Shown here piece by piece: positions 6,886-51,374 of a DNA stretch of 64,000 bases (positions are counted from its first letter, which is position 1; every line of letters starts with the position of its first letter). A program made the position numbers and the translations under genes. Below the pieces are notes generated by a model. The model worked only from the letters and a program-made list of their open reading frames with translations, did no database searches and had not been told where the DNA came from. The stretch is from Tridacna crocea (taxonomy: Eukaryota > Mollusca > Bivalvia > Cardiida > Cardiidae): the NCBI GenBank assembly GCA_943736015.1, contig OX031059.1, forward strand, positions 59,345,159-59,409,158, in the 5' to 3' direction.

Positions 6886-6889
6886 TTTC

Positions 6890-10290: not shown

Positions 10291-10435
10291 TGTTGCTTAA
10301 ATTTTTAATTTTCTTAACCTGTTCTCCGTCACTTTACCAACCGGTTAAGTTTTAGACTCGTTCAAAAGTCGCTCTTATGCATACATACGAAGAATTATAA
10401 AAATTATGGTGTACAAATGATGGAAAATATTTTTA

Positions 10436-10661
10436 TACTCTTTATCAAAAGACAAAATTTTAGAATGGTCTAAATTGAAAGCACTTGCAGTTGACAAAAT
10501 AATCGTAACTCAAAAATTGAAATTTGTTTCCAGCAGGGTAGAAAACTTTGTGGGAAAAGGAGAAAATGCTGGTTACCAGCATTTTCTCCTTTTCCCACAA
10601 AGTTTTCAAAGGTCTTCCTTCTCAGGGTCGTAAAAACAAGGGATCGTTTGATAAAGAATTG
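10436..10661. mobile_element. TTAA palindromic MITE copy
   Basis: The left arm is diverged and the central hairpin is nearly perfect, with AAAACTTTGTGGGAAAAGG mirrored on the far side. The right arm carries TCAGGGTCGTAAAAACAAGG. The terminal TTAA are no longer intact. Confidence 0.8.
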
Positions 10662-11183: not shown

Positions 11184-11335
11184 TTAACCCTTTACCACAC
11201 AATGACCCCTTTTAACGACCCTAAGAAAGAGGCCTCTTGAAAACTTTGTGGGGAAAGGAGAAAATGCTGGTTACCAGCATTTTCTCCTTTTTCCGCAAAG
11301 TTTTCTACCCTATCAAAGAAAAGTTGGGTCATTTG
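11184..11335. mobile_element. TTAA MITE, left arm and hairpin only
   Basis: It starts at TTAACCCTTTACCACACAAT and keeps the hairpin. It then loses similarity about 60 bp into the right arm, where a family E fragment (TTTTCGCAGTTCCTAGAAGG, about 11359) follows. Confidence 0.75.
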
Positions 11336-12614
11336 AGCCGCTATGATATTATTGCCTGTTTTCGCAGTTCCTAGAAGGTCCCTTTTTTGCGTGATGGATC
11401 ACAAATGATTATCTAGAATTACCTCAAAAATGGAATTTAGGATGCTTGGTGAGTACGGTCCCTGATTCAAGTACGGCTAGCGGCGCTTGTCGCGTGGAGC
11501 GTAGGCAAGGCAAAGCAGCCTTACCATTGTAAAACATACCCAGGGAAGGCATGAAGATAGAGTTACTATCATTATGACTTTTTGACAGTTAAAAACAAGG
11601 AAAAAAGCCCTACAAACAAACATAAGGGTTTTAGCACATTAGTACCAATAATCAACTTTTTCCATAAAATTTATATGCCACTTTTAAAAACATTAGAGCA
11701 CAAGTTGGCTTCTATACAAAAGGAGCCAGGAGAGGTCAGCATCGATGGTTTCCAACAGTTTATTGGCTTTTAATTTCAATATATTTTGGTACATGTAAAC
11801 AAACAAATAAAAAACCACCCTGTAGGAACATCGTATGCTTTACATGATGGTCTTTTGACCTTCTACAGTCGTATTTTCATGTCGCGTGATCTTCTCCAGA
11901 GGTCTTCTTTCTCTTATTTTTCTAAAATCTTCTGTTTTTCTTCTGTTTAGATTTATTTGTTTCATGAAAATTGACAATGATTTGAGAGTTACCAGCAACC
12001 ATGGCATATTAATATTACAAATCTTTTCTGAAATTCTTCATATAATGACGAAACAGACTGTGTATCAGAACAATTTTGCAAGAAAAATGGATTTAGACAG
12101 CATATTCTATGGCGTCTGCCGTTTAAATTAAACTCTGATGACCTCTCCAATAAGTAGAAAGCGATTGTAACTAATAAGTTCTTCTGTTGTCATAACTATG
12201 AACATGTACAGGTGTATTACAACCAAAATACTGATGGTTTGCTGTGAAATCGTGTGGTGTTTTTTCATAGACAGAATTAGTTTACAAATAAATAATTATT
12301 AATCTCTCTATCGCTATCCTGGGACATCATGCAAAACCTCTCAAGTATTATATATCATTAAATTAGATTAAGAACTATCATATAAAGTTTCTTTATTGCG
12401 AATGTCACGTGGAAGGGGCACGCTTAGATAATTTATAAAGGCTTGCTCTTGTAGAGGAAATCAAAGTATTGAAATAACTGTGTAGATGAAAGTCAAACTG
12501 CACAGAACGTTCAAGTTCGATACAGGAAAAATTATAAACCAATAATACCTTTGCAATACTTGGATTTTGAACAATCAAATTGAAAGTTTGATTCATTGGC
12601 AGGAAAAAGGTTAA

Positions 12615-12845
12615 TTAACTCTTTACCAAACAATTCCTGGTTTTTACGACCCTGAAATAGAAGTTTTTTAAAAACATTGTGGGAAAAAGGAGAAAATGCT
12701 GGTAATCAGCATTTTCTCCTTTTCCCAACAATGTTTTCTATCCTGCTGGAAACAATTTCAACTTTTTGAGTTATGTTTATTTTGTTGTCTGCAAATGCTT
12801 TCAATTTAGACCAGTCTAAAATTTTGTGGTTTGGTAAAGACTTAC
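12615..12845. mobile_element. TTAA palindromic MITE copy
   Basis: It starts with TTAACTCTTTACCAAACAAT, has a hairpin at about 12670-12740, and ends GTGGTTTGGTAAAGACTTA. It is nearly complete. Confidence 0.82.
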
Positions 12846-13894: not shown

Positions 13895-14205
13895 TTAACT
13901 CATTAGCAAACGACAACTTTTCTTACCTAATTTTCCCCCTCACTTTCTGTGATTCTTTTTGTTTGTAAGTTGTACTCTTTGTTCGTGTATCATGTATTCA
14001 TGATTTGAACAACAAACTTGATTGATTGATTTGCTTACGACACAATAAAAGTGACTGAAGATTTGAAATTGGCTTTGTGAAGAGTAGAAAACATTGTGGG
14101 AAAAGGAGAAAATGCTGGTAACCAGCATTTTCTCCTTTTCCCGTAATGTTTTCTACCAACATGTTCTCCTTTTCCCAAAATGTTTTCTACCCTTCACAAA
14201 TTTAA
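13895..14205. mobile_element. TTAA MITE copy with duplicated hairpin arm
   Basis: The left end is TTAACTCATTAGCAAACGAC, the hairpin is at about 14085-14155, and a second TTCTCCTTTTCCCAAAATG arm follows directly (14163-14200). A piece of unrelated DNA separates the left end from the rest. Confidence 0.7.
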
Positions 14206-20345: not shown

Positions 20346-20427
20346 ACTCTGAGAGATGAAAATACCGTAAAACACCAAATTAACCCTTAGGCTGCCGAGC
20401 GAGACTCACTAACTTTTTGCGTTTAGT

Positions 20428-20477
20428 GTAGATCAAGATCAGACTGCACAGAACGTGCAGTCTGATCTTGGATCTAC
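20428..20477. repeat. Palindrome family C, intact copy
   Basis: This is a 50-bp near-perfect hairpin, GTAGATCAAGATCAGACTGC mirrored around ACAGAACGT. Confidence 0.85.
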
Positions 20478-20808
20478 GCTGCCGATAAGGAGAAACTATT
20501 CCCCAGAATATACCTTTGAAATAGATATGTTTAGGTTTTTAACATCGAAATGTAAATTTCATTTTAGATATTTGGCAGGATAAGAGTTAACAAACAGCCC
20601 GTACCCTTTTCTAAACCAGCAATAAATCTGTTAACAAATTAATTTCGCGGAAATGTCGATGATTCTCCTTAGGCTTCCCCTGCCGGCGAGATTTGCCGTC
20701 CCTGCCTATTTTTTTTTAAAATCCAATTCTACCGAATGTAGATTACTTATGTTTACTGATCCTATCACATTATTTGTACATGTGAGCTGCACTCTGGAAA
20801 ACGGGGGT

Positions 20809-21149
20809 TTAACTCGTTACCAAACGGCAATATCTTAGGCTTGTCCAAATCGAAAGCATTTGTAGACGACAAAATAAAAGTAACTGAAAATTTTAAATTT
20901 GTTTTGTGAAGGGTAGAAAACATTGTGGGAAAAGGAGAAAATACTGGTTAGGCTTGTCCAAATCGAAAGCATTTGCAGACGACAAAATAAAAGTGACTGA
21001 AAATTTGACATTTATCTTGTGAAGGGAAGAAAACATTGTAGGAAAAGGAGAAAATGCTGGTTACCAGCATTTTCTCCTTTTCCCACAATGTTTTCTAAAG
21101 AGTTCTTTCCCAGGGTCGTCAAAAGTAGGGATTGTGTGGTAATGTTTAA
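20809..21149. mobile_element. TTAA MITE with duplicated left arm
   Basis: The left arm occurs twice, at 20809-20947 and 20948-21050. The first breaks off inside the hairpin (AGAAAATACTGGTT) and the second restarts at AGGCTTGTCCAAATCGAAAG. The right end TTAA is at 21146-21149. Confidence 0.8.
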
Positions 21150-21524
21150 ATGAATCTTCTTCCTGCATTATATAAAGCAAAGCCACGTATGATACTCCGC
21201 ATTATATGGATCCACTTCCATTTTCGTTTGTAAACCAAAAAAACGCCAAAATAATGAGGTGAATTTTAGTCTTTTGAACTGCAGAAAATCAATCAATGAC
21301 AAAAAGTTCGACTCAAGCGATACTTTTTATAGATGCATTAGATCACTGTTTCAAAAAGCATTACTCAGTTCTTATTGTTTTTATAAATTATAGTATAACT
21401 TTGACAAAGGACTGTACTTTTTAAAAAATCATATGTATGTGGAATATCTTCTTGCTTTCTTGTAACATTTCATAGTGCAAAGTCGGTGAAAACAATGTGT
21501 CAGGGGCTGCAATAATTTACTTCA

Positions 21525-21713: not shown

Positions 21714-23575
21714 GAGAGAGAGAGAGAGAGAAAGAGAGGGGTGGACTTTTTTGGAAATCATTCGTTAAATCGCTTGCTTTCCTTAATATACGACTGAACT
21801 TTCGAAAAGATTACTTCATTTTCCTGAAAAGTAAGAAAATCATTTCCAAAGAGGAGTGTTTGAAGGTCTATAGTTATTTCATAATATGATATGGAGCGAA
21901 TGAACTTATTTCTTATAGTTTCATAAAGTGGACATTCGAAGAAATAGTGTGCATTTGTCTCTATCGCACCACATACACAGTTAGGAGAATCAACTACATT
22001 TCTTAAGTACAGGTGGTACTTTAGGGAACTACAATTATTTCGTAACCTAGTATGCAAAATTTGAAGGCGTCTTTGTCCTACAAAAAACAATTTATTTGGA
22101 TACGGCCTATAAATGTCCAGATACCTTTTGAAGCATGACAAGGAATTCTGATTTCTGATATCTTGAGGGATTGAGTTCCATTCTTCCACAACGGATGGGA
22201 GAAACGATTTTTTATAGAGATTTGCTCTACAAGCAATGGTTCGTATGTTATTAGAATCGCGCAAGTTGTAATTGTTAAGGTTGCTATTCAAATCAGGGAC
22301 AAGATCGCTCAGGTAGGAGGGAACAAGGCATTAGTCACTTTAAAGAACAATATAAGTTTGTGTTTGCGCCTGCGATCGCCAAGTGACTCCCAACCACATT
22401 AATTTTTAGTTCATCCAAGGAAACCAGTTTGCTACAACCTGTTACTATTCTAGCAGCCTCATTTTGGATTTTGTCTAGATCATTTTTCAAGTATTGAGGT
22501 ATATTGTCCCAAACGACGTCTCCATACTCTATAATAGGTCTAATGAACGTAAAATATATAACTTGAAGAGATTTCCTATCAAGACATATCTTAAGACGAC
22601 GCATTATATTTATCCTTTTCCATGCTTTCTCAATTGAATTTTTAATGTGAACATCCCGTGATCCGTCGTGTGAGAGGTGAAAACCTAAATGTTTATGTGA
22701 CTGGACATTTTCAATATTTATATTTGACATACAGAGATCAGGGTGAATATTTTGTGCATTTTTACGTGTGATGATAAGTGATTCAGATTTTGAAGGATTG
22801 AATTTAACCAGCCAGGTTTCTGCCCAGTTATTAATTTTTTCAATATCTCTTTGAAGAATTTGTCCCGCATCGTTTGGGTTACGGATGATTAATGATAGAC
22901 TAGTACCGTCTGCAAATAGGTTGATACCCGATTCAATGTTTTCGACAATATCGTTAATAAATACTAGAAAAAGAAGCGGACCGACTATCGATCATTGAGG
23001 GACACCAGCATTTATGTATTGGGCATTAGACTGGCCACCTGGCAGGATAACTTTTTGACGCCTGTTACAAAGGTAATTAGAAAGCCAAACGAGTAGTTTA
23101 CCATTTATTCCTGCACGACGTAGTTTGAATACCAAACCCTTATGCCATATTTTATCGAAAGCTTTACTTATATCAAAAAATATAAATCTAATTTCAAGGC
23201 CTTCGTCTAAAGCATTGCATATTTTATTATAAAGGAATGTTACTTGGTTAACTGTAGAGTCGCCAGGCAAAAACCCCGATTGATACGGTGTAAAAAATTT
23301 ATTTTAATTTAAATAATTAAAAATATGTTTAAAAAGTATCCTTTCAAAAACCTTTTCCATTGTATTAAGAAGAGGGATCGGTCTGTAGTTGGACGGCAGA
23401 GAAGGATCACCATTCTTAAAAACTGGACAGACATTAGACATCTTCCATGAAAGGGGTAGTTTACTGGTCTCTAAGCTGAAGTTAAAGAATTGACATAAAG
23501 GATTAATTAACTTTGAAAAATCATTCTTTCTGGATTGCAGAAATTCTACACAAAACTGCAAATTACACGGAAGAG
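21525..23575 (-). mobile_element. 5'-truncated LINE (Jockey/CR1-like reverse transcriptase)
   Basis: On the minus strand, the conceptual protein begins inside the fingers region (LPLSWKMSNVCPVFKNGD, YRPIPLLNTMEKVFERI). It continues through FFDISKAFDKIWHKGL, a GVPQ-SIVGPLLFLVFIND block, the active site FADGTS (normally FADDTS) and the thumb (HKHLGFHLSHDG). It ends in a C-terminal segment with a CVCGAIETNAHYFFECPLY zinc-type motif. There are in-frame stops after FNYLN (about 23289) and GVPQ (about 22990), and a frameshift near 22380. The second catalytic Asp is Gly. The copy is dead and lacks the endonuclease part. AATAAA near 21545 and a GA-rich tract at 21677-21738 lie in the 3' region. The clade assignment is tentative. 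Confidence 0.85.
21677..21738. repeat. (GA)n microsatellite
   Basis: This is about 60 bp of GA dinucleotides with two interruptions, inside the LINE 3' region. The frame of 75 codons through it is not a gene. Confidence 0.95.
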
Positions 23576-24518: not shown

Positions 24519-24665
24519 AACTCTCTACCAGACGACAAATTTTTAGGCTTGTCCAAACTGAAAGCATTTGCAGACGACAATTTCAGCATTTTCTTCTTTT
24601 CCCACTTGAAAGGCTTTATTCCCAGGGTCGTAAGAAATCGGTATTGCGCGGTATATGGTTACGAA
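24519..24665. mobile_element. TTAA MITE copy with collapsed hairpin
   Basis: The left arm (AGGCTTGTCCAAACTGAAAG) runs directly into half a hairpin (CAGCATTTTCTTCTTTTCCC) and the right arm (CCCAGGGTCGTAAGAAATCG). Confidence 0.75.
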
Positions 24666-24869
24666 TTTCATTACAAGAAAAGTTCTGGACTTTTAAAACC
24701 TGATTTGACCAGTACTATATTAAGGAAAACCCGGTGGGTGCGTGAAGTTAGCAGTAAGTTCGATAATCGGAGTTCGATATTCAATGTCGAAATGAATATG
24801 CGGATGAGTTGAATTTCATGCCGCAGTAAATTCGCTTTTTTTTTCAAACTCAAAAGATAGTTACGAACA

Positions 24870-27800
24870 TTTATGAATCCCGATTTGAATATCGAAATGA
24901 ATTTCAAGCCAGCAGCAGATTCGCGTGTTTTTATGTTTGGGCATATGGATGTTTATGAGATTGAATATAGATTTGAACATCGAAATGAATATCATGCCAG
25001 CAGCAGATTCACAATTTTTTATGTATGGGCTTATAGATGGTGTAGGAGTTCGCATATAGATATGAATATCGAAATGAATTTCATGCCAGCAGCAGATTCG
25101 CGTTTTTTATGTATGGGCTTATAGATGGTGTATGAGATTGAATATAGATATGAATATCGAAATGAATTTCATGCCAGCATCAGATTCGCGATATTTTATG
25201 TATTGGCTTATGGATGGTGTAGGAGATCGAATATAGATTTGAATATCGAAATGAATATCATGCCAGCAGCAGATTCGCGTTTTTTAATTTATAGGCATGT
25301 GGTTGGTGTATGAGATTGAATATAGATTTGAATATCGAAATGAATTTCATGCCAGCAGCAGATTCGCTTTTTTTTTATGTATCGTCATGTAGATAGTGCA
25401 TGAGATTGAATATAGATTTGAATATAAAAATGAATTTCATGCCAGCAGCAGATTCGCGATTTTGTATGTATGGGCTTATGGATGGTGTAGAAGTACGAAT
25501 ATAGATTTGAATATCGAAATGAATTTCATGGCAGCAGCAGATTCGCGATTTTGTATTAATGGGCTTATGGATGGTGTATGAGATCGAATATAGATTTGAA
25601 TATCGAAATGAATTTCATGCCAGCAGCAGATTCGCGTTTTTCTTATATACGGGCTGATGGATGGTGTGAAAGATCGAATATAGGTTTGAATATCGAAATG
25701 AATTTCATGCCAGCAGCAGATTCGCGATTTTTTATATATGGGATTATGGATGGTGCATGAGATCAAATATAGATTTGAACATCGAAATGAATATCATTCC
25801 AGCAGCAGATTCGCATTTTTTAATGTATGGGCATGTGGATGTCTATGAGATTGAATAAAGATTTGAATATCGAAATGAATTTCATGCCAGAATCAGATTC
25901 GCGATATTTTATGTATGGGCTTATGGATGGTGTATAAGATCGAATATAGTTTTGAATATCGAAATGAATATCATGCCAGCAGCAGATTCACTTTTTTTTA
26001 TTTATGGGAATATGGATGGTGTATGAGATCGAATATAGATATGAATATCGAAAAGAATTTCATGCCAGCAGCAGATTCGCGTTTTTCTTATGTATGGGCT
26101 TATGGATGGTGAATAAGATCGAATATAGATTTAAATATCGAAATGAATATCATGCCAGCAGCAAATACGCGATTTTGTATGTATGGGCTTATGGATGGTG
26201 TATAGGATCGAATATAGATTTGAATATCGAAATGAATTTCATGCCAGCAGCAAATTGGCGTTTTTCTTATGTTTGGGCTTATGGATGGTGTATAGCATCG
26301 AATATTGATTTGAATATCGAAATGAATTTCATGCCAGCGGCAGATTCGCGTTTTTCTTATGTATGGGCTTATGGATGGTGTATAGGATCGAATAAAGATT
26401 TGAATATCGAAATGAATATCATGCCGGCAGCAAATACGCGATTTTGTATGTATGGGCTTATGGATGGTGTATAGGATCGAATATAGATTTGAATATCGAA
26501 ATGAATATCATTCCAGCAGCAGATTCGCATTTTTTATTGTATGGGCATGTGGATGTCTATGAGATTGAATAAAGATTTGAATATCGAAATGAATTTCATG
26601 CCAGCATCAGATTCGCGATATTTTATGTATGGGCTTATGGATGGTGTATAAGATCGAATATAGATTTGAATATCGAAATGAATATCATGCCAGCAGCAGA
26701 TTCACTTTTTTTTATTTATGGGAATATGGATGGTGTATGAGATCGAATATAGATTTAAATATCGAAATGAATATCATGCCAGCAGCAAATACGCGATTTT
26801 GTATGTATGGGCTTATGGATGGTGTATAGGATCGAATATAGATTTGAATATCGAAATGAATTTCATGCAAGCAGCAGATTGGCGTTTTTCTTATGTTTGG
26901 GCTTATGGATGGTGTATAGGATCGAATATAGATTTGAATATCGAAATGAATTTCATACCAGCAGCAGATTCGCGTTTTTCTTATGTATGAGCTTATGGAT
27001 GGTGTATAGGATCGAATATAGATTTGAATATCGAAATGAATTTCATGCCAGCAGCAGATTCGCGTTTTTTATGTACGGGCTTGTGGATGTCTATGAGATT
27101 GAATATAGATTTGAATATCGAAAAAAATTTCATGCCAGCAGCAGATTCGCGATTTTATATGTATGGGCTTATGGATGTTGTCTGAGATCGAATATAGATT
27201 TGAATATCGAAATGAATTTCATGCCAGCAGCAGATTGGCGTTTTTCTCATGTATGGGTTTATGGATGGTTTATAAGATCGAATATAGATTTGAATATCGA
27301 AATGAATTTCATGCCAGCAGCAGATTCGCGATTTTTTATGTATGGGCTTATAAATGGTGTATAAGATCGAATATAGATTTGAATATCAAAATGAATGTCA
27401 TGCCAGCAGCAGATTCGCGTTTTTCTTATGTATGGGCTTTTGTATGGTGTATAAGATCGAATATAGATTTGAATATCGAAAGGAATTTCATGCCAGCAGC
27501 AGATTCGCGTTTTTCTTATGTATGGGCTTATGGATGGTGTATAAGATCGAATATAGATTTGAATATCGAAATGAGTATCATGCCAGCATCAGATTCACTA
27601 TTTTTTATTTATGGGAATATGGATGGTGTATGAGATCGAATATAGATATGAATATCGAAAAGAATTTCATGCCAGCAGCAGATTCGCGTTTTTCTTATGT
27701 ATGGGCTTATGGATGGTGTATAAGATCGAATATAGATTTGAATATCGAAATAAATATCATGCCAGCAGCAGATTCGCAATTTTTCTTATGTATGGGCTTA

Positions 27801-29642
27801 TGGATGGTGAATAAGATCGAACATAGATTTGAATATCGAAATGAATTTCATGCCAGCAGCAGATTCGCGATTTTGTATGTATGGGTTTATGGATGGTGTA
27901 TAGGATCGAATTTAGATTTGAATATCGAAATGAATTTCATGCCATCAGCAGATTTTCAGTTTTTAATGTTTGGGATGTGGATGTCTATGAGATTGAATAT
28001 AGATTTGAATATCGAAATGAATATCATGCCAGCAGCAGATTCACGATTTTCTTATGTATGGGCTTATGTATGGTGTATTAGATTGAATATAGATTTGAAT
28101 ATCGAAATGAATTTCATGCCAGCAGCAGATTCGCGTTTTTCTTATGTATGGGCTTATGGATGGTGTAGAAGATCGAATATAGATTTGAATATCGAAATGA
28201 ATTTCATGCGAGCAGCAGATTCGCGATTTTTTATGTATGGGCTTATGAATGGTGTATAAGATCGAATATAAATTTGAATATCGAAATGAATTTCAAGCCA
28301 GCAGCAGATTCGCGTTTTTCTTATGGATGGGCTTATGGATGGTGTATTAGATCGAATATAGATTTGAATATCGAAATGAATTTCATGCCAGCAGCAGATT
28401 CTCAGTTTTTAATGTTTGGGCATGTGGATGTCTATGAAATTGAATATAGATTTGAATATCGAAATGAATATCATGCCAGCAGCAGATTCGCGATTTTCTT
28501 ATGTATGGGCTTAAGCATGGTGTATGAGATTGAATATAGATTTGAATATCGAAATGAATTTCATGCCAGCAGCAGATTGACGTTTTTCTTATGTATGGGC
28601 TTATGGATGGTGTATAAGATCGAATATAGATTTGAATATCGAAATGAATTTCATGCGAGCAGCAGATTCGCGAATTCTTATGTATAGGCTTATGAATGGT
28701 GTACAAGATCGAATATAGATTTGAATATCGAAATGAATATCATGCCAGCAGCAGATTCGCGATTTTGTAGTTATGGGAATATGGATGGTGTATAGGATCG
28801 AATATAGATTTGAATATAAAAATGAATTTCATGCCAGCAGCAGATTCGCGATTTCTTATGTATAGGCTTATGAATGGTGTATAAGATCGAATATAGATTT
28901 GAATATCGAAATGAATTTCATGCCAGCAGCAGATTCGCGATTTTGTATGAATGGGCTTATGGATGGTGTCTGAGATCGAATATAGATTTGAATATCGAAA
29001 TGAATTTCATGCCAGCAGCAGATTCGCGTTTTTCTCATGGATGGGTTTATGGATTGTTTATAGGATCGAATATAGATTTGAATATCGAAATGTATTTCAT
29101 GTCAGCAGCAGATTCGCGATTTTTTATGTATGGGCTTATGAATGGTGTATAAGATCGAATAAAGATTTGAATATCGAAATGAATTTCATTCCACCAGCAG
29201 ATTCTCAGTTTTTAATGTTAGGGCATGTGGATGTCTATGAGATCGAAAAGAGATTTGAATATCGAAATGAATATCATGCCAGCAGCAGATTCGCGATTTT
29301 GTATGAATGGGCTTTAGGATTGTGTATGAGATTGAATATAGATTTGAATATCGAAATGAATTTCATGCCAGCAGTAGATTCGCGTTTTTCTTATGTATGG
29401 GCTTATGGATGGTGTATAAGATCGAATATAGATTTGAATATGGAAATGAATTTCATGCTTGCAGCAGATTCGCGATTTTTTATAAATGGGCATATGGATG
29501 GTGCATGAGATAGAATATAGATTTGAACATCGAAATGAATATCATTCCAGCAGCAGATTCGCATTTTTTAATGTATGGGCATGTTGATGTCCATGAGATT
29601 GAATATAGATTTGATTATCGAAATGAATATCATACCAGCAGT
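24870..29642 (+). repeat. Left arm: tandem array of ~90-bp units (about 53 copies)
   Basis: The unit contains TTGAATATCGAAATGAATTT, CATGCCAGCAGCAGATTCGC and ATGTATGGGCTTATGGATGG. The length is mostly 88-91 bp, close to a multiple of three, so several frames stay open for many units. Variant units (GGGCATGTGGATGTCTATGA) recur irregularly. A block near 25745-26030 is repeated almost unchanged near 26480-26745, showing expansion by larger segments. Confidence 0.95.
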
Positions 29643-31375
29643 AGAAATGAAATTCATTTCGATATTCAAATCTATATTCGATCTTATACGCCATCCATAA
29701 GCCCATACATAAGAAAAACGCCAATCTGCTGCTGGCATGATATTCATTTCGATATTCAAATCTATATTCGATCTTATACACCATTCATAAGCCCATACAG
29801 AAGAAAAACGCGAATCTGCTGCTGGCATTAAATTCATTTCGATATTCAAATCTATATTCGATCTCATACACAATCCATAAGCCCATACATACAAAATCGC
29901 GAATCTGCTGCTAGCATGATATTCATTTCGATATTCAAATCTATATTCAATCTCATAGACATCCACATGCCCAAATATTGAAAACTGCGAATCTGCTGCT
30001 GGCATGAAATTCATTTCGATATTCAAATCTCTATTCGATTTTATACACCATCCATAAGCCCATACATAAAAAATCACGAATCTTCTGCTGCCATGAAATT
30101 CATTTCGATATTCAAATCTATATTCGATCTTATACACCATTCATAAGCCCATACATAAGAAAAACGCGAATCTGCTGCTGGCATGAAATCCATTTCGATA
30201 TTCAAATCTATATTCGATCTTAGACACCATCCATATGTCCGTACATAAAAAAAGGCGATTCTGCTGCTGGCATGAAATTCATTTCGATATTCAAATCTAT
30301 ATTCGATCTTATACACCATCCATAAGCCCATACATAAGAAAAACGCGAATCTGCTGCTGGCATGAAATTCATTTCGATATTTAAATCTATATTCGATCTT
30401 ATACACCATCCATAAGCCCATACATAAGAAAAACGCCAATTTGCTGCTGGCATGAAATTCATTTCGATATTCAAATCTATATTTGATCTTATACACCATC
30501 CATAAGCCCATACATAAGGATAAAGCGAATCTGCTGCTGGCATGAAATTCATTTCGATATTCAAATCTATATTTGATCTCATACACCATCCATAAGCCCA
30601 TACATACAAAATCGCGAATCTGCTGCTGGCATGAAATTCATTTCGATATTCAAATCTATATTCAATCTCATGCACTATCTATATGACGATACATAAAAAA
30701 AAAAAAAAAACGCGAATCTGCTGCTGGCATGAAATTCATTTCGATATTCAATCTATATTCGATCTCATAGACATCCACATGCCTATACATTAAAAATCAC
30801 GAATCTGCTGCTGGCATGATATTCATTTTTATATTGAAATCTATATTCAATCTCATGCACTATCTATATGACGATACATTAAAAAAAAAAAAAAAAAAAC
30901 GCCAATCTGCTGCTGGCATGAAATTCATTTCGATATTCAAATCTATATTCAATCTCATACACCAACCACATGCCTAAACATTAAAAAACGCATGATATTC
31001 ATGTCGATATTCAACTCTATATTCGATCTTATACACCATCCATAAGCCCATACATAAAAAACGCGAATTTGCTGCTGGCATGAAATTCATTTCGATATTC
31101 AAATCTATATTCAATCTCATAAACATCCACATGCCCATACATTTAAAAACGCGAATCTGCTGCTGGCATGAAATTCATTTCGATATTCATATCTATATTC
31201 AATCTCATACACCATCTATAAGCCCATACATAAAAAAACGCGAATCTGCTGCTGGCATGAAATTCATTTCGATATTCATATCTATATTCGAACTCCTACA
31301 CCATCTATAAGCCCATATATAAAAAATCGCGAATCTGCTGCTGGCATGAAATTCATATCGATATTCAAATCGGGA
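29643..31375 (-). repeat. Right arm: inverted tandem array (about 19 copies)
   Basis: This is the same unit in the opposite direction, joined head to head to the left arm at about 29645. It is one third the length of the left arm. Two A-runs of 16-18 bases (30699, 30880) and some partial units mark local rearrangement. Confidence 0.95.
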
Positions 31376-31649
31376 TTCATAAATGTTCGTAACTATCCCT
31401 TGAGTTTGAAAAAAAAAGCGAATTTAATGCGGCATGAAATTCAACTCATCAGCATATTCATTTCGACATTGAATATCGAACTCCGATTATCGAACTTACT
31501 GCTAACTTCACGCACCCAAACCCGGTACATTATGAAATTATTTTGGCACTATGAGGATTACAACGGTCATTGATCAATTTATTCTTTTGTCACAATGCTA
31601 TGATAAGTTCATACATTATTATACGCGACTTATTGACCTTCTGCAGACA

Positions 31650-31705
31650 GTGTAGATTAAGATCTGAGTGCACAGAACATGCAGTCTGATCTTTGATCTA
31701 CACTG
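31650..31705. repeat. Palindrome family C, copy
   Basis: GTAGATTAAGATCTGAGTGC is mirrored by CAGTCTGATCTTTGATCTAC. It is preceded by CGCGACTTATTGACCTTCTG, as at 1160. Confidence 0.8.
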
Positions 31706-31879
31706 TCCTATTTTGACACACACTGCTGAAAATATGCTTTTGAAATTGCAATATTCTTACTATCGATTTGAAAGGTTTTCCCCCCCCCCCCCATTTATTT
31801 AGTAGGTTATACCTTAAATCGCTTTAATAATTGATGGTTCATTCGGGCGGTTTTTAAGTCTGTTGTAAAGATATTGTCA

Positions 31880-31946: not shown

Positions 31947-32078
31947 ATTATGTGGGTGATATAGCCAATGTTTTTGCCTCGCCAGTTACAGGAACTCGAT
32001 CCTATTCGACTGCTGAAAGCACAGTCTGTATATATACTCTGGCATTTTTTTTTATCTTTCAGGCTTGACTAAATATGC

Positions 32079-32144
32079 TGATATCATAGATTAAGATCAG
32101 ACTGCACAAAACGTGCAGTCTGATCTTAAATCTATGACATCAGC
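32079..32144. repeat. Palindrome family C, longest copy
   Basis: The arms extend to GATATCATAGATTAAGATC and GATCTTAAATCTATGACATC, about 66 bp in all. Confidence 0.85.
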
Positions 32145-32149
32145 AAAAG

Positions 32150-34204: not shown

Positions 34205-37200
34205 CTGAACTTTTAACAAAACATTAGAAGGCATTGAATTTGTTAAGAACATGAATAAGCACAAGAATTTGTCTAAATATGAATGAAAACATTTTGGTAG
34301 AGGGAGATATTTCTCGTTACGAGCAATTTCTCCCTCTGCTATGATGTTTTCAAAATAATCTGCCGCAAGAGGAAAATGGTCACCTGATGGTTGTAATGAT
34401 TTGTTAATATATCTTCATGTATCAGCACAATCTGTTTGTATTTATAATTAAGGAAACAGCGAAAATGCTGGTTACCAATTTGAAAACTTTTGCACTCTTA
34501 ATAATTGTTAACCGTCACGCTAAAAAGGACAGTCTGGGAATTCCGAACATCAATCAGAGGAAAAGAGACCAAAGTTGAGTCCAGTTTAAGTTGATAGTTC
34601 AAAAGTGATTGTATAACAAGGTAAAATGAACACTTTTCATACAGAAAATATCATAAAAGCAAAAAAATGTCAACCCTGCACAATTCTTGCAGTCTGACCA
34701 GGGTTGATACTTTTCGCAGTTCCCAGAAGGTACCTTTCTGCGTGACGGGCATTATATGGCTTGCAACACGCGAAAAGGGGGATAGCGATATTTGCGTAAA
34801 TTGTCGTCTCGGATCAGCCTGCGCATCCGCGCAGGCTAATCCGAGACGGCACTTTAAGACTACATTAGATTTTGTACAACAGTAGACTTGCGGAAAACAG
34901 AAAATTACATAAAAACCGAAAGTGCCGTCTCCGATTAGCCTGCTCGGACTGCGCAGGCTGATCCAAGACGCCACTTTACGCAAATGTCCGAATGTCCCTT
35001 TTTGCTTGTTGCCGCCCATATTAAAAACTAACAGTTTCTTGCCTAACCATCTATTACTTACTTCAGTAAGTATCTTAACATTTTCTCTCTCCCGATCTCT
35101 CGCTTTTAAAGCTGATCTACGGTTTTGTTCACGACGAGCATTTTTCTTTTGTATTTCGTCTTCCCGTAGCTACAACACATAAACAATGGCTAGAGAAAAA
35201 TTAAAACACTATCATAATTAAATAAAAAGTTAACTTTTAGAACACCCGACGTAAGTACTTAGACTGGTATTTATCGAAAGATTAATTTTGTTGTAAGTCA
35301 GTAGTCTAAGGCCAGGCAGGCTGGATTCAATTTTTTTTTTTCAATCCGTCTGGTAGAGAAATTTCACGTGTGATAGGTGATAGTACAGCTATAAAGAAGT
35401 CAAATTAGGGTGTACGCCAGAAAACAAAGTGGTGCAGATTTTTTTCAGACGACATTTTGTTACCCCACCCACTAAAAATGCATTGAATTGAGCTTATGTG
35501 TATAAACCACAAAATTTCAATATCTTCCGGAGTATATTGATTGAAAATAGGTCTAATTAGCAGTGAAGCACATAAGCAATGGTAAAATTCAGTTACAGGA
35601 GAATGTAACATACATTGGATGTCCTGGTGTTACCCCCACCTACCAAATTTGCACACATTTTTTCATGAGCAACTTAATATCATTTAAGACTTTTGTGTTT
35701 CAACTTCTTGTGAAAGGGTTTGATGAGAACTAAATGCTTACTACTGTACTAAATTGCTGCATTGTATATTTGTTACGGTCTTGCTTATCTTTTACCCCAC
35801 CCACTTATGTATATACACGCGGCCATCTATGAGCTATTATATAATTGTAGCAGATTTTAGGAGACACGATTTTTGAAAATTAAGTTGGATTTTTTGTTTG
35901 ATAAGGTTCCTTATATCCACACTGGAATATTGTCTACTGTGATGCAATGCTAGTCATAACACATCGACATGTCCTTCATGTAACAAAATTGTAAAGCAAA
36001 AGAAATTCCATTCTGATTTAGAAAAATAAATATTTTCTGGTTTAGATTATAATATTTCACTTCGAACCATCTATATAACACATATTTGTTTAATATTAAT
36101 TGAGCATTTTGGAACAAAATTTCGGCACGTTATATGTCAGAGAAGGTCAGTGTTTTGCAACTATTTTGATTTCTTGAAAAAATTACATAGATCTAGTAAA
36201 TGATTCCTAGCCGTTTGTAAGAAAAATGTAATTGTATTTTCCGTTTTGTTCCCAGAAATTGTTTTTATGAAATCAAACGTCGCGGCTTCCTTTCATGAGC
36301 ATTTTTTATCATTGTTATATAAACAAGTTATGTTTTACAGCAATGACATAAAATGTTACAGCACAGACACATATAAGTATCAAAAAAGTTTTGTACTTAG
36401 TGCCTTTATTTGAGAAAAATCAAACGAAATAATAATTGAATAGTTACACATAAAATGAATAAAAGTCATTTGCACCAAAAATACTGTCTTGTTGACAAGT
36501 TAAGACTTTAAATGTTATTACAATTACATTTAAGTTGTTTGAATTACTCTTCTGTACCCACTACATTTATGCTATATGCATTAAAAATATCATTTTTATG
36601 TAGGAAATAAATCTGTTACATCATGACATTTCAACAAGAGGGACATTTGCCCTGGAGTGCTCACCTGAGACTATAGCTTTATATCCCTCATGTTTATGTG
36701 ATGAACTTTAAACTAACCTGTGAACCCAGGGGCTGGGCCAGTTTTGACCCCAAGGGAATAATATGAACAAATTTGGGAGAGGTCCACTAGGAATTGCTAC
36801 ATGCCAAATATCAAAGCTCTATGCCTTCTAGTTTTAGAGAAGAAGAATTTTATAATTTTCTGTCTTTGTTCCTATGTTTGAACTTGTGACCCCCAGGCCA
36901 GGGCCAGTTTTGACCCCAGAGGCATCAAACAAACTTGGTAGAGGTCCACTGGAAGATGCTACATACCAAATACCAAAGCTCTACGGCATCAAGTTTCAGA
37001 GAAGAAAATTTGTAAAGTTTTCCTTCTTTGTTCCTGTCTTCGAATATATGACCCCCGTGGCAGCGCCAATTTTGAACCCAAGGGTATCATATGAACAAAC
37101 TTGGTAGATGTCCACTAGGAGATGTTACATTCCAAATATCAAAGCGCTATGCCTTTTACTTTGTGAGAAGAAGAATATTGAAGTTTTCATTCTTTGTTCC

Positions 37201-40200
37201 TAGGTTGAACTTGTAACCTCCTGGGCGGGGCCAGTTTTGACCCCAGGGGCATCATGTGTACAAACTTGGTAGAGGTCTACTAGGAGATGCTACATACTAA
37301 ATGTCAAAGCTCTATGCCTTCAATTTTCAGAGGAGAAGATTTTTAAAGTTTTCCTTCATTGTTCCTATGCTCAAACTTGTGACCCCGGGGTGGGGCCAAT
37401 TTTGTCCCCAGGGGCATTATTTGAACAAACTTGGTAGAGTTCCACCTGGAGATGGCCACATACCAAATATCAAAGCTCTATGCATTCTACTTTCAGAGAT
37501 GAGGATTTTCAAAGATTTTGTATTTTTTTCCTTTTTGCGGCCATGGCAACCAGAATTTTGAGTGGAATTCTATTTTTGCGGCCATGGCAACCAGAATTAC
37601 GAGTGGAATTCTATTCTAAGAACAATTTTGGTGGAGCTTCACCCAAGGAACATATCTGCCAAGTTTCATCAAGATTTGCCCAGTTATTTAGGAGAAGATG
37701 TCTAAAGCAATTGTTGACGGACGACAGACGCTGGACGTCGGACATAGGACGATCACAGTAGCTCACCTTTAGCACTATGTGCTAAGGTGAGCTAAAAAAA
37801 AGAACCCAGAAAACCACCCACATCTACACCCACACACACACCCAATACCATACACTCATACACATACACACACACAACGCAGCTGTACTGTCAATGCAGC
37901 AAACAAAGAAACTGATGATTGATCATACGTCACGATTACGCTGAATGAACAGCACATTTGTTAATTTTAAGTCATCAAGAGGATTTTAGCTCCACTGGTC
38001 GAAGGCCAGCGGGCTTATTTCATGGCCCGCTGTCCGTCGTGTGTCAGTCCATACGTGCATTAACTTATATTTCAAACATCTCCTCTGACACTAGCCATCC
38101 AAACTTGATGAAACTTCACAGAAATGATCCTGCCATGGTTTTCTTCAGAGTTTCTTGACAGAATCTGATTCCTTCAAAAACTCTGTTTGCCATGGCAACA
38201 AAACTGAAAAATATTGAAATCTTTGAAAATCTTATCTGAAAGCATAATGCCTAGGGCTACCAAACTTGTCATATAGCTTTATGTCGTGAACCTCTAACAA
38301 GTTCCTTCAAATAATAGCCCTGGAGTCGAAATTGGCCCCGCCCCGAGGGTCACAAGTTTTATACGGGATTATATAGGGAAAACTTTAAAGTCCTTCTTTA
38401 GGGCCTTGGGCTACCAAATTTGGCATGTATCTTTATCAACTGGGCGTCTACCAAGAGTACCCAACTTATAGTCCTGGGGTCAAATTTGGCCCGGTTCCGG
38501 GATCACAAGTTTTACATGGGCTTATATTGGGACAGCCTTTAAAAATCTGCTTTTACATAGCCGCAAGGCCTAGGACTACCAAATTTTGTATGTAGCTTTA
38601 TCTAGTGGGCCTCTATCAGAAGGGCCCAAATTATAGCCTTGGGGTTAAGTTTGTCCCCACACCAGGGGTCACAAGTTGTACCTTGGCTTTTGTGTTGAAA
38701 ATTTTATAAATGATATTTTTACTAACCATAATTAAGCCTAGGGCAACCAAATTTAGCCCTGTTTCATGGGTCTCATGTTTTACATGGCTTTTAGGAAACT
38801 TTGAAAATCTTCTTGTTTATAACACAACATTCTAGACCTGTATTATTTGGTACGGGGGTTTATCTTGTGGACCTTTACCAGGATTCAAGTAATTATAGTT
38901 TTATGGTCAATAATGGCTTTGCCCAGGGGTCAAGGATTCATAGCTTTCTCGTAGGATTTTATAGAAAAAAAATGTATGCCTTCAAGTTTAAAACTAATTG
39001 CCCAGAGTAGTAATATGTGGCTTGTAGTGTTTTCATTTATTTGCCAGTGGCACGATACAGGGTCGTCATGGCCCCCTTGTTTTAAGTTATATCCCCTATT
39101 GCATCAGTGAACCGGAGAAACAGATGGATGAAAAAAAAGGGCCCTTTTTTGTTTTCACTTATTAGCCAGTGGAGCGATCATGGCCATAATGACCCTCTTG
39201 TTTCAAGTCATATCCCCTATTGCATCAGTGAAATAGATTAACAGAATAGGAGAGTAAGAATAATAAAGGAAATAAAGCAGCTTAAGTAATGAAAATAGCC
39301 AAATCTTAGTGTTGGCATACTTATGGTAACAGTTGTGAATATATAATGAAATAACGAAATCAAAGGTTAGTGTGCAACAACAACTTATACTGTTGCACTC
39401 ATTAATAGATCATTTTTGAGGTGCTAAATGCTAAAACTCCATAACTGTTCTTAATTCTGGTCCTCTATGTCTGTCCTAGTAGTTCTAGCCAAAACTGTGA
39501 AAAAAATCTAGCCAGAAATATTAACACATTCAATATGAAGACTGTAAATCAGAGAGTGTTTTCAATTCATTCTGCGAGGAACATTTATTAGGTGTTTTAC
39601 GGTATGTGAAATCAGTCAGATTTTATTTAATATAAGTCTTACATACATGTAAATGTGGATTTTTATGAGCATCTTAAATTCAAAAGATTTGTCAAAAAGA
39701 TTGCATTGTTTCATTGGTTTCTTTTTTCATTATTGTGAACATAGGAAAAGTTTAATTTTTGTTATAGGCAAATTTGGGGTAGGCGCGTTTATTAGCATAT
39801 AAAAAAAATCTGCACCACTTTCAGGTCTGGCATCCATGCTTAAAGTGACTCTAATAGGCTATCCTAACTCACTGTACCATTTGAATTTTTCTACCAGATG
39901 GATTGAAAAAAAATTAGAAATAGAGCCTTTTTTTGATCTGAGCCTTAGCCTACAGTGTCGCTGTTCTTTCCCCCTAATTGTATAAATGGTTAGATTTATT
40001 TTGGCGTAAACAATTTTCAGTCTGAAGGAAAAGCAGGATTTTCGTTCGTTCTCTGCAATCTCTGATAACACAAAAGCAACTGAAGTGCTTTATAGAATAT
40101 AAAAGAAAGGATGAGTCCAGTAGTGAATAGAAGAAGCATCATTTCGTTGATGCAAGTTATATACTATGTACCTTGTACTGTATGGGTTCGTGGGGTTCGA

Positions 40201-41299
40201 GAAACAATTCTTCTTCGCCTCTTGTCACTCTATCAAGTTGTAACTTGAATTTCAATTCTTGTTTTACGATAGGGTGTATGGATTTCTCTCTAACTGATTC
40301 CTCTACAGCCTTCGTTATTCCAGATCCATAATCTACATCTCTGGTATTATTTGGTAGTTCCTCCTCGCGGCTTTCCCAGCTTTTGGTATTGGTTAGAGCC
40401 ATTTTCTTCTCACTTTCATTCTTCTGCGACGTATTCTTATCAACTTGCTCTGCGTCTATCTTCTCTGTACGTTCTTGACTGAGGTTTTGCAGACTGCTAT
40501 CAGCAAAACATTCGACATCATCTAAAACTGAAATCAAATCGCCGTCTTCAATATCAAACAATGTCCGTGTGCTTACAAGACTGTCATCCTCTGAAGCTGT
40601 GTTGTTGTCAAACACTTTCTGTGTCCTATAGCTAGATTTATCTATTGATATGTCCTCCATTTCAAGGACGTTGTTGACAACATTGGATTCGGACAGATCG
40701 TCTGTATCATTATATTGAGGAGCATAGAAGTCGTACTTGTTGATCGGCGGCTTTTCTTTAAAATGAGCTCCATTTTCAGTCTCTCGGTCGAAGGATATTT
40801 CTTCAACTTCGGTAATTTTATCCGATGACTTCCCTTCGTTATCCGACGACTTCCGTTCGTACATACTCACATGACCGTTTTTCTGTGTTGAAGTTCTGTC
40901 AACAGCTGATGTTCCGATAATCCATGTATCATTTAAGAACGAAGGGAAATTACCGACACAGCAAGCCTTTTCCTCGTCGCCCGCATAATTTCTACATGAT
41001 TGTGAACTGTGGTAGCCAGACTTGACTTCTACTTGAAATGATGTCTGTAAGTTGATCTTGGAATATGTATCCTTGCGATTTTTACCTACTGGTCTGTATT
41101 TTTTTACACACGGTTTATTTCGCGATAAGTGCCTCTTGCATGTGACAGATCTTTTCTGGATTGTCCCATTTTTCAGTTTTTCAGAGGAAGATCTCAGCAT
41201 GGATCCACTGGATGCATACTTATCAAAGTCTATTAGATGATCGTAACTGGTCGGTAGGAGAAACGATGACATAAATAAAGCTATGGCTTTGGTGAACAT
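34031..41299 (-). CDS. ATF3/JDP/Fos-group bZIP transcription factor, three-exon model
   Basis: The model has exon 1 at 41299-40172, exon 2 at 35169-35062 and exon 3 at 34204-34031, 469 codons before the stop. All introns are GT/AG and phase 0. Joined, exons 2 and 3 give a bZIP domain. The N-x7-R core is NRRSALKAR, and the first zipper Leu follows exactly nine residues later. Heptad d-positions are Leu, Lys, Leu, Leu, Leu, His. The end of the zipper, EKAGLVKRIKEHLTHC, matches the ATF3 pattern EKxxLxxxLxxHxxxC. Exon 1 ends with HPIVKQELKF, close to the VKEELRF motif of vertebrate ATF3. Such factors act in the nucleus as dimers on AP-1/CRE sites in stress and immune responses; that role is inferred. 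Oddities are Ser and Ala at two normally conserved DNA-contact positions, and a hydrophobic first 20 residues. The link between exon 1 and exon 2 is the weakest part of the model. Confidence 0.65.
34295..34355. repeat. Solo hairpin, alternative core
   Basis: GAGGGAGATATTTCTCGTTA is mirrored by CGAGCAATTTCTCCCTC, with outer GAAAACATTT and ATGTTTTC. It lies in intron 2 of the bZIP gene. Confidence 0.7.
34650..34757. repeat. Palindrome family E, copy
   Basis: AAAATGTCAACCCTGC is mirrored by CAGGGTTGATACTTTTCGCA, followed by CCAGAAGGTACCTTTCTGCG. A sister copy is at 63290-63405. Confidence 0.65.
34758..35013. mobile_element. MITE family D, copy 2
   Basis: This 256-bp element has arms of about 110 bp: GGCTTGCAACACGCGAAAAG, TGTCGTCTCGGATCAGCCTG, and the reverse. 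It sits about 50 bp from exon 2 of the bZIP gene, within the intron near its donor site. Confidence 0.85.
35062..35169 (-). CDS. bZIP gene exon 2: DNA-binding basic region
   Basis: This is a 108-nt, 36-codon exon between GTTGTAG and GTAAGTAATAG. It reads LREDEIQKKNARREQ followed by NRRSALKARDRERENVKIL and TE. The order EDE-basic-RRE-x-N matches ATF3 and BATF; BATF has RREKN where this has RREQN. The invariant Asn and Arg of N-x7-R are present. The family normally has Ala-Ala and Cys or Ser at the other contacts (N-x-x-A-A-x-x-C/S-R); here they read Ser-Ala and Ala. From memory, the equivalent exon in vertebrate fos is also 108 nt. Confidence 0.85.
36631..37796 (+). mobile_element. Helitron/pearl-like element with tandem core, copy 1
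   Basis: The 5' end AACAAGAGGGACATTTGCCC is followed by GCTCACCTGAG. Several ~140-bp units follow (CAAAGCTCTATGCCTTC, GGGGCCAGTTTTGACCCCAG), then GACGGACGAC-type sequence. The terminal hairpin is AGCTCACCTT-TAGCAC-TAT-GTGCTAAGGTGAGCT, ending CTAA. A subterminal hairpin followed by CTRR is typical of Helitron 3' ends. Confidence 0.6.
37801..37880. repeat. CA-rich simple repeat
   Basis: This is an imperfect ACACAC/CCCACA tract between two Helitron-like elements. Confidence 0.8.
37984..39207 (-). mobile_element. Helitron/pearl-like element with tandem core, copy 2
   Basis: The minus-strand 3' end is CTGGCCTTCGACCAGTGGAGCTAA. The core units are of about 165 bp with GGCCTAGG(G/A)CTACCAAAT and ACAAGTTTTACATGGGCTT. 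The 5' end appears twice in tandem (39048-39085 and 39170-39207), each followed by ATATCCCCTATTGCATCAGTG. Confidence 0.6.
39210..40150. other. Intronic non-coding stretch
   Basis: Apart from the right inverted end described above, nothing is recognised. Confidence 0.4.
40172..41299 (-). CDS. bZIP gene exon 1: acidic N-terminal region
   Basis: These 376 codons run from ATG at 41299, with an in-frame TAG stop about 25 codons upstream, to a donor AAG/GTACAT at 40171. If unspliced, the frame would run only five codons further. The first 18 residues (MFTKAIALFMSSFLLPTS) look like a signal peptide, so a separate secreted protein is an alternative. The body is rich in Ser, Asp, Glu and Lys, with acidic runs such as LFDIEDGDLISVLDDVECF, as in activation domains. 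A sumoylation-type VKQE lies about 30 residues before the exon end and resembles the ATF3 VKEELRF segment. This is the longest non-repeat open frame in the window. The downstream intron of about 5 kb is filled with transposons. Confidence 0.65.
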
Positions 41300-41536
41300 A
41301 ATGATGAACAATGTAGACTTCGGACAGCTATCTGTGGTATCAATGTCAATCTCCCCGAATTATTCTAAGCTCTGAAGAACAGATTCTTCTAGACAGAGAG
41401 TCAATACTCTTATCGGAATCAAATCTATATTCATAATGATATATAGAAAAAGGACTTAACATGTATTAACATTCGGGATGCTGAAGGAAATCTGCAGGAT
41501 TTCATTGTTGCTATAGGTATAGAAAGGCATGCAAAG

Positions 41537-44699: not shown

Positions 44700-46405
44700 T
44701 TTTTAGCTCCACTGGCCGAAGGCCAGCGAGCTTATGTCATGGCCCGTTGTCCGTCGTGCGTCCGTCCGTCCGTCCGTCCGTCCGTGCGTCCGTCCGTGCG
44801 TCCGTCCGTCCGTCCGTCCGTGCGTTAACTTTTTCTTTAAACATCTTCTTCTCTGAAACTACCCATCCAATTTTGATGAAACTTCACAGAAATGATCCTG
44901 CCATGGTCCTCTTCAGAATTTCTTAAAAGAATTTAATTCCTTCAAAAACTCTGGTTGCCATGGCAACAAAACTGAAAAAAATTGAAAATCTTTGAAAATC
45001 TTCTTGTCTGAAACCGTAAGGCCTAGGGCTACCAAATTTGGCATGTAGCTTTATCTAGTGGACCTCTACCAAGTTTCTTCAAATTATAGCCCTGGGGTCA
45101 AAATTGGCCCCGCCCCGGGGGGTCACAAGTTTTACATGGGCTTATTTAGGGAGAACTTTAAAACTCCTCTTCTACCTAAGCATAGGGCCTAGGGCTACCA
45201 AATTTGGGATGTTGTTTTATCTAATGGACCTCTACAAAGAGTGTCTAAATTATAGCCCGGGGGTCAAAATTGGCCCCGCCCCGGGGGTACCAAGTTTTAC
45301 ATGGGCTTATATAGGGAGAACTTTAAAATTCATCTTCCACCTAGCCATAGGGCCTAGGGCTACCAAATTTGGCATGTAGCTTTATCTAGTGGACCTCTAC
45401 AGAGGGTGTCCAACTTATAGCCCAGGGGTCAAAATTGGCCCCGCCCCGGGGGGTAACAAATTTAACATGGGCTTATATAGGGAATACTTTCAAAATCTTC
45501 TCGCACCTAGCTATAAGGGCTAGGGCTATCAAATTTTGCATGCAGCTTTATCTAGGGGGTCTCTACCAAGGGTGCCCAAATTATAGCCCTGGGGTCAAAT
45601 TTAGCCCGGTCACAGGGGGTCACAAGTTTTACATGGGCTTATATAGGGAAACTTTAATAATCTACTTGTACATAGCCATATGGCCTAGGGCTACCAAATT
45701 TTGCATGTAGCTTTATCTAATGGGCCTCTAACAAGAGGGCCCAAATTTTAACTTTGGGGATCAAGTTTGACCCACCCCAGGGTTCACAAGTTTTACATTG
45801 GCTTTATAAACCTGTCTCAAGGGTCAGATATTTTTCAGGGCCTTTTATTGAGCAAACTTGTTTTACAGGGCTTTTTATTGGGCAAGATTCAAAAATCTTC
45901 GTGTTTATAACCACACATTCTAGTTTCATATTGTAGGTCTGAGGTCAAAATTGACTCCATCCAGGGATCACAAGTTTAACATGGGCTTCAAAATATGATC
46001 ACTTCAATTTAAACATTAATCAAGGGAAATAACTCTTTTTATGAAAGATAAAGTTTGGTACTATTTACCTCCCTTGATTATCAAACTACATTGATACATG
46101 ATTGGTGCTAGACATTAAGTTTTTTGATAGAAAATATTCTGTTTTCAAGTGTGATTCATTTTGATGCTAATAGTTATGCTCACATGAGGTGAATAATAAA
46201 TTAAAAGTAAGGTTTCTATCATTCAGCTTATTTTTTCCAAGGACTTTACCTTTCATGCTAATGAATTAACCTGCTTGTACTGCCTGACAGTGTCCATTGT
46301 TTTTGAAGGCCCTCTTTGTCATGGTCATGAACACTTGAATTTGTGTGGTAAAGGGTTAAAAAGCCAGTGGAGCGATACAGGGCCATCATGGCCCTCTTGT
46401 TTAAA
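44700..46405 (-). mobile_element. Helitron/pearl-like element with tandem core, copy 3
   Basis: The minus-strand 3' end is CTGGCCTTCGGCCAGTGGAGCTAA, next to a (GTCC)n tract at 44757-44823. About five core units of 150-170 bp follow (ATAGCCCTGGGGTCAAAATT, GGCCCCGCCCCGGGG). The 5' end AAGAGGGCCATGATGGCCCT lies near 46400. The open frames across it share repeated peptides and are not genes. Confidence 0.65.
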
Positions 46406-48169: not shown

Positions 48170-49611
48170 AAAAGAGGGCCAAGATGGCCCTGGATCGCTC
48201 ACCTGAATTTTCGATAGGACCATAGCCTTTTTTTTTTGAAGGTATTGAAACACTAGAAACAAAATCATTATTTTGCCAAGCAATTTTTAACAGGTCACCT
48301 GTAAAAGTCCTCTCAAAATCTGACCAGCAGTTTGAAAAAAGAAGAATTTTTGGGAGTTTCTTAATTTCCGTACAGTGCAAGTAGCCCCCATTCACTAGAG
48401 TCATGTTTCTTGACCTATCAAAATTTCGCGAACACATTTTGAAAAAGGCCATTCAAGGAATATTTCCGTGAAACAATTTTCAAATCTGACCAGCCGTTTC
48501 AGAGAAGAAGAATTTTCAAGAATTTCTTCATTTCCATATAGTGCAAGTAGCCCCCATTCACCAGGGCAATGTTTCTTTACGAATCAAACTTTCACGAACA
48601 CTTTTCGAAAAGGGTCACCCAAGGAATATCTCTGTGAAAAATTTCCAAAATCTGGCCAGCCATTTCAGAGAAAAAGAATTTTAAAGAATTTCTTCATTGC
48701 CCTATAGTTCAAGTAGCCCCCATTCACCAGAGCCATGTTTCTCGATGAAACAAAATTTCGCGAACATGTTTTGAAAAGGGTCACCCAAGGAACATCTCTG
48801 TGAAATTATTTTAAAATCTGACCAGCCGTTCGAGAGAAGAAGAATTTTTAAGAATTTCTTCATTTACCTATAGCGCAAGTAGCCCCCATTCACCAGAGCC
48901 ATGTTCCTCGACGGATCAAAATTTCGCGAACAATTTTTGAAAAGGGTCATCCAAGGAACATTTCTGTGAAATTATTTTAAAATCTGGCCAGCGGTTACAG
49001 AGAAGAAGAATTTTTAAGAATTTCTTCATTTCTGTATAGTGCAAGAAGCCCCCATTCACCAGAGCCATGTTTCTTGACGGATCAAAATTTCGCGAACAAT
49101 TTTTGGAAAGGGTCACCCAAGGAACATCTGTGTGAAATTATTTTAAAATCTGGCCAGCGGTTTCAGAAAAGAAGAATTTTTAAGAATTTCTTCATTTCTG
49201 TATAGTGCAAGAAGCCCCCATTCACCAGAGCCATGTTTCTTGACGGATCAAAATTTCGCGAACAATTTTTGAAAAGGGTCACCTAAGAAACATCTCTGTG
49301 AAATTATTTTAAAATCTGGCCAGCAGTTTCAGAGAAGAAGATTTTTAAAGAATTTCCTAAAAAATTCTATTTCGTTGCCATGGCAACCAGAGTTTTTGAC
49401 GGAATCAAATTCTGTGAACAATTTTTAAAGAGGACCTCCCAAGGAAATTTCCAGCCAAGTTTGGTCCAAATCCGCCCAGCGGTTTAGGAGGAGTTGATGT
49501 TTAAAGAATTGTTGACGACGCACGACGCACTGACGCAGGACGGACGACGCACGACGGACACCGGGTGATCCTAAAAGCTCCCCTTGAGCACGTTGTGCTC
49601 AGGTGAGCTAA
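48170..49611 (+). mobile_element. Helitron/pearl-like element with tandem core, copy 4
   Basis: The 5' end AAGAGGGCCAAGATGGCCCT is followed by GGATCGCTCACCTGA. About six units of 170-180 bp follow (CCCCCATTCACCAGAGCCAT, ATTTCGCGAACA, AAGGGTCACCCAAGGAACAT). The tail is GACGACGCACGACG-rich and ends in the hairpin GAGCACGTTGTGCTC-AGGTGAGCTAA. Confidence 0.7.
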
Positions 49612-51201: not shown

Positions 51202-51374
51202 TTTTTTTCGGTGAAAGATTGAAATTTATTGCATCGAGTGGACACCATCGGTAATATTTTCACTCCTGGCGCAGCCACGAGTGAAAATATTACCGATGGT
51301 GCGCCACGAGTGAAAACATTACCGATGGTGTCCACTCGATGAAATAAATTTCGATCTTTCACCGAAAAAAAAAA
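51202..51374. repeat. 173-bp palindrome with CACTCGATGAAATAAA arms
   Basis: The outer arms TTCGGTGAAAGAT and ATCTTTCACCGAA enclose GAGTGGACACCATCGGTAAT and inner repeats of GTGAAAATATTACCGATGGT. The inner unit is present three times. Confidence 0.85.

Follow-up and report, generated by a model that had tools for sequence, protein, structure and literature searches.

Foldback elements have long terminal inverted repeats (TIRs) of tandem units in opposite orientation, with a target-site duplication at their borders. Most are thought to be related to the Mutator superfamily, although exceptions exist (PMC4079207). In Tetris, a foldback from Drosophila virilis, 37 bp are common to the tandem unit and the flanking domain, matching at ~80% (PMC4079207). 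In Galileo, one transposase-binding site has been described ~70 bp from the end; of its four tandem repeats, the first two contain two further sites and the last two contain none (PMC3688188). The long inverted arms of Galileo have been linked to chromosomal inversions (PMC2775673). Duplications of 8–10 bp, mostly 9 bp, are reported for 45 of 53 Tm1 elements (PMC3169594), 9-bp duplications for Rehavkus and 8–11-bp duplications for Mutator-like elements (MULEs) (PMC6446971). MULEs, and likewise hAT transposons, were reported in every mollusc genome analysed by one survey (PMC10294476). Helentron-type elements have been identified as the source of dispersed satellite-like arrays in the Pacific oyster (PMC7492417).

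An earlier note on the DNA studied here regarded foldbacks as known mainly from Drosophila. The published range is wider, with reports from rye, Arabidopsis, sea urchin and Chironomus (PMC4079207) and from nematodes (PMC3169594); the satellite-armed architecture was already known from other animals and plants. The same note knew of no mollusc example, and the mollusc-directed open-licence literature, at the level of titles and abstract openings, does not contradict it: a search there for foldback, MULE-NOF and Rehavkus yielded no described mollusc foldback. In the available text of the oyster literature checked, including PMC7492417, the word foldback serves only to name or cite Tetris, and it is absent from the available text of the bivalve transposon survey PMC10294476.

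The clam element lies in a 64-kb window, by which we mean the whole stretch of DNA analysed. It spans positions 24736–31517 (6782 bp when the duplication is read as 9 bp) and forms an inverted-repeat element that is complete and apparently lacks coding sequence. A foldback-type element had been proposed at this place, and we find its components: inverted ends, long TIRs of tandem units arranged head to head in opposite orientation, and a target-site duplication at the borders. The left flanking domain of the TIR (24736–24881, plus strand) starts with GGGTGCGTGAAG and the right one (31372–31517, minus strand) finishes with CGCACCC, so that the ends read GGGTGCG...CGCACCC under the 9-bp reading. 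Each domain is ~145 bp long, and the two differ at 4 of the 145 positions compared without gaps. When up to three mismatches were allowed, the outermost 33 bp gave two matches in the window, both exact and one per strand (0 of 100 shuffles). The inverted match of the element halts at its borders. No further copy of the element ends was found within the 64-kb window, and no other window match to the element of at least 40 bp at E 1e-8. Exact scans gave 0 matches for a 23-bp end in viral_contigs and 0 for a 31-bp unit core in each of viral_contigs and genome_contigs; the sequences scanned come from viruses and prokaryotes, and the zeros carry no information on bivalves.

Inside the flanking domains, the arms consist of tandem copies of a unit with a period of 89 bp, in line with the ~90-bp unit in head-to-head arrays reported before. 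The left array (24882–29645, plus strand, 4.76 kb) holds 53 full units and one partial unit. The inverse right array (29647–31371, minus strand, 1.73 kb) holds 19, the innermost being counted together with a partial unit at the tip. A search by unit phase located 55 unit starts on the left and 20 on the right; the total of 72 full units leaves out the diverged unit within each flanking domain (two) and a short incomplete unit at the tip of the left arm (one). The arms had been called very unequal (4.8 against 1.7 kb), which the array lengths confirm, and their unit numbers differ 2.8-fold. Within the unit, columns 1–44 are better conserved (mean 0.957) than the remaining columns (0.893). The arrays meet head to head at a junction (29600–29690, not assigned to a strand) with no middle domain; its inversion point at ~29646 (29645–29647) agrees with the 29645 given earlier. 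The junction folds into a hairpin (z −10.2; 0 of 200 shuffles fold equally well). The flanking domain (z −0.8) and the single 89-bp unit (z +0.9) were rejected as hairpin formers.

A stretch of the left flanking domain at 24810–24843 (plus strand), which contains a T run, is common to the array unit. The alignment covers 35 columns with 31 matches, 3 mismatches and 1 gap, and scores 48; the highest score among 1000 dinucleotide shuffles is 40. It begins at unit column 20 and extends beyond column 44 into the less conserved T-rich part, so that the common and the best-conserved parts of the unit overlap without being identical. We regard this stretch as a candidate origin of the array unit. By analogy with Galileo, it is also a candidate transposase-binding site, and the array units may represent additional sites of this kind.

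The window contains 21 open reading frames of at least 120 aa, of which 11 lie within or overlap the element. A homologue search with one of them, a 301-aa frame of translated array, gave 277 candidates, none with E ≤ 0.001, and to the extent of this frame the earlier statement that the element has no coding core holds. A Pfam search of the 10 frames outside the element found no transposase among them and returned only an RVT match below the cut-off and an HLH domain. The HLH domain belongs to the frame at 6520–6891, a TCF21/musculin-like protein (best match 96%) whose nearest named relatives are TCF21-like proteins of Dreissena polymorpha (75%) and Mya arenaria (73%); judged by this frame, the host is most likely a bivalve. 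At 21758–22991, two neighbouring open frames, one with an RVT_1 match below the Pfam cut-off and the other without a match, are probably a broken retrotransposon; that it is of the non-LTR type is our guess. A 400-aa open frame at 40157–41359 has no Pfam match.

Other repeats are present in the window. A dispersed ~230-bp family with a ~70-bp self-complementary core (MITE-like) occupies about a dozen places (112–348, 861–1098, 10419–10660, 11184–11322, 12599–12844, 14029–14200, 20808–21166, 53093–53323, 55070–55261, 56015–56248, 60164–60400 and 61080–61206), and a fragment of it (24519–24580) is found in the DNA that flanks the foldback element on its left. Short sequences related to each other, some of them palindromes (CAGTCTGATCTTAG-like), occur at 31624–31708, 32076–32145, 20425–20481 and 1159–1242, one of them immediately to the right of the element. 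Long self-complementary palindromes of ~170–200 bp are found at 51198–51374 (89%), 59628–59797 (79%) and 60441–60641 (78%). Arrays of a ~165-bp unit, different from the 89-bp unit, lie at 36715–37519, 38240–38754 and 45020–45808, the first running opposite to the second and third, and a GTCC microsatellite (44749–44825) adjoins one of them. They resemble the arrays carried by oyster Helentron/HINE elements, for which four-base microsatellites are described (PMC7492417). A further array at 48315–49484 has a 166-bp unit; only its edge (49326–49559) matches the array at 44.8–45.0 kb, so its unit may differ from the ~165-bp one.

The two arms carry traces of a common history. Merging 14-mers that are single in each arm gave 21 segments, 4 in the flanking domain and 17 outside it. 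The order of these 17 agrees between the arms broadly (rho 0.75; 0.0005 of 20,000 permutations). The signal is imperfect: neighbouring segments are non-independent, and several segments break the order, among them right 187/left 988, right 743/left 4495 and right 1413/left 782. Right unit 2 is 1% different from left unit 3, and the closest counterparts of right units 5 and 6 are left units 5 and 6, although they differ by 21% and 16% when gaps are included. Among right units 1–8, only 2 have the same-position left unit as their closest match, and the permutation value for the diagonal is weaker (0.0145). The best full-arm alignment shows ~88% identity and 53 gap positions; with the end domain left out of account, alignments of the right arm at many other registers of the left array score nearly as high (2337 vs 2189 bits). 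An ungapped scan revealed block duplications in the left arm with lags of 7–8 units and 97–98.5% identity, among them a 260-bp copy at 25776–26035 (plus strand) that is 98.5% identical to 26490–26749 at a lag of 8 units. A BLAST self-search of the left arm at 94% identity or more showed no block longer than 250 bp among the matches listed (at most 40). Judged by their sequences, the arms appear to descend from a single ancestral pair that expanded unequally. The simplest account is that a single ancestral arm was inversely duplicated and that copy number then changed independently, mostly by expansion on the left; loss from the right arm would leave the same picture. New in this analysis are the stretch common to unit and flanking domain, as in Tetris, the broadly conserved order of arm variants, and the left block duplications.

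The heptamer AACCCGG, described before as a perfect 7-bp duplication (24728–24734 on the left), is indeed found on either side of the element, yet the direct repeat continues exactly for one more base in each direction, giving 9 bp: AAACCCGGT at 24727–24735 and again at 31518–31526 (both plus strand). Neither strand of the 64 kb contains this 9-mer anywhere else, and for this base composition a given pair of positions would match over 9 bp by chance with a probability of ~8e-6. With 7 bp, the ends become TGGGTGCG...CGCACCCA and are likewise symmetric (TIR T...A), because the 9-mer by coincidence starts with A and finishes with T. A 7-bp site would need two chance matches and a 9-bp site one chance complementarity (first A, last T); on this count, made on a single copy, we favour 9 bp. 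The 7-bp reading had led to the proposal of a Galileo-like foldback with a P-type transposase. The foldback architecture of that proposal stands; its 7-bp basis is the less likely reading, and the exact 9-bp repeat suits a Mutator-type element better. A P-superfamily origin would agree with AACCCGG at both borders, with the pairing of the adjoining T and A as inverted-repeat ends, and with Galileo, whose TIRs are long and repeated internally (PMC3688188) and whose border sequences are 7 bp (PMC3573991); the direct repeat nevertheless extends beyond the heptamer on either side, and Galileo TIRs, in the available descriptions, have no more than three or four tandem repeats and not tens (PMC3688188, PMC3573991). 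The 9-bp exact repeat of this single copy falls within the 8–11 bp, usually 9 bp, of Mutator elements, and the TIRs (145-bp end domain plus arrays) are long, as in that superfamily. Both features fit Mutator. We consider the P/Galileo alternative live but weaker, and unlikely. Membership of the Mutator superfamily is short of established, as no transposase was seen, and the support for mobility is one duplication, the element being a single copy with none further in the window. TIR superfamilies with 8–9-bp duplications are inseparable by duplication length alone, which, together with the missing transposase, would also suit hAT or Merlin, the former present in all mollusc genomes surveyed. 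We judge such an origin quite unlikely, given that foldbacks are mostly, with exceptions, assigned to Mutator (PMC4079207), and that Merlin was nearly restricted to cephalopods in the automatic libraries of one survey, although the survey also curates three Merlin consensus sequences (PMC10294476).

Two further alternatives concern the arms. A short foldback or MITE could have inserted first and its array grown mostly in place by unequal exchange, in which case the 6.8-kb form would itself never have moved. Such a history concerns timing and does not conflict with a Mutator-type origin. The 2.8-fold difference in unit number agrees with it, as do left blocks of up to 98.5% identity, no more diverged than the ends (4/145). 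Set against this are the many private variants common to both arms in broadly matching order, which suggest that a two-armed array of some length already existed, and we consider growth in place conceivable but doubtful. The strong hairpin at the junction might instead point to an assembly or long-read foldback artefact. Read-through should yield near-identical arms, whereas these show ~88% identity with 53 gap positions and unequal length, and the inverted match ends at borders marked by an exact 9-bp duplication. The gapped identity, the length difference and the flanking duplication fit a read-through artefact poorly, and we consider it highly improbable.

Taken together, the element is likely to be a non-autonomous cut-and-paste foldback DNA transposon, probably dependent on a Mutator-like (MULE) transposase supplied in trans. 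It would have been inserted by transposition, with this enzyme duplicating 9 bp of the target site. Its array unit would stem from a duplicated part of the end domain, maybe containing a transposase-binding site, and an inverted duplication would have given rise to the two arms. Each arm may later have been altered independently by unequal exchange or slippage, leading to 53 units in one and 19 in the other.

We tentatively raise the possibility, on which we place rather less than even confidence, that bivalve genomes carry Mutator-type foldbacks with long satellite arms seeded from the transposase-binding part of their own ends. If so, satellite arrays would have a second means of dispersal through bivalve chromosomes in addition to Helentrons, with arm lengths evolving independently at each end. 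A bivalve foldback with a 9-bp duplication would reveal a distinct, cut-and-paste satellite carrier and would add another case of a satellite unit apparently derived from a transposon's own end, on which the idea that tandem units serve as extra transposase-binding sites could be tested outside insects.

Like the oyster HINE/Pearl elements of Helentron type, the clam element is a satellite-like array on a mobile element in a bivalve; those elements differ in having no target duplication (as stated for Helitrons), subterminal inverted repeats and a short array flanked by two unlike modules (PMC7492417). Membership of the Helentron/HINE group is ruled out by the 9-bp target duplication and the strictly terminal inverted repeats. 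Rehavkus has 9-bp duplications and a minisatellite near the TIR as well, but it carries one transposase ORF, its minisatellite lies only before the 3' TIR, and its hosts in the survey are arthropods and annelids (PMC6446971). With Galileo, the clam element has in common long, internally repetitive TIRs and ends that vary independently. Extra transposase-binding sites are described in some Galileo repeats and are only candidates in the clam units; Galileo, studied in Drosophilidae, differs in its 7-bp border sequences and its maximum of three or four tandem repeats per TIR (PMC3573991, PMC3688188). Tm1, a Mutator/foldback element of root-knot nematodes, resembles the clam element in its composite TIRs, with tandem-motif numbers that are variable and unequal between the ends, and in its mostly 9-bp duplications. 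Its motif is 13–15 bp long, with asymmetric 7-bp outer motifs, in contrast to the 89-bp clam unit, and it has transposase-bearing copies, of which none was seen for the clam element (PMC3169594). Tetris, compared by its published description, differs in its ~220-bp unit, its arms of at most 1.7 kb, as opposed to up to 4.9 kb here, and its host, and the clam element is without the inner or middle domain of Tetris. Both nonetheless have a flanking domain, an outer domain of tandem repeats, a short stretch common to unit and flanking domain, and no conserved ORF, and the 9-bp duplication of the clam element compares with 8–9 bp in three complete copies of Tetris (PMC4079207).
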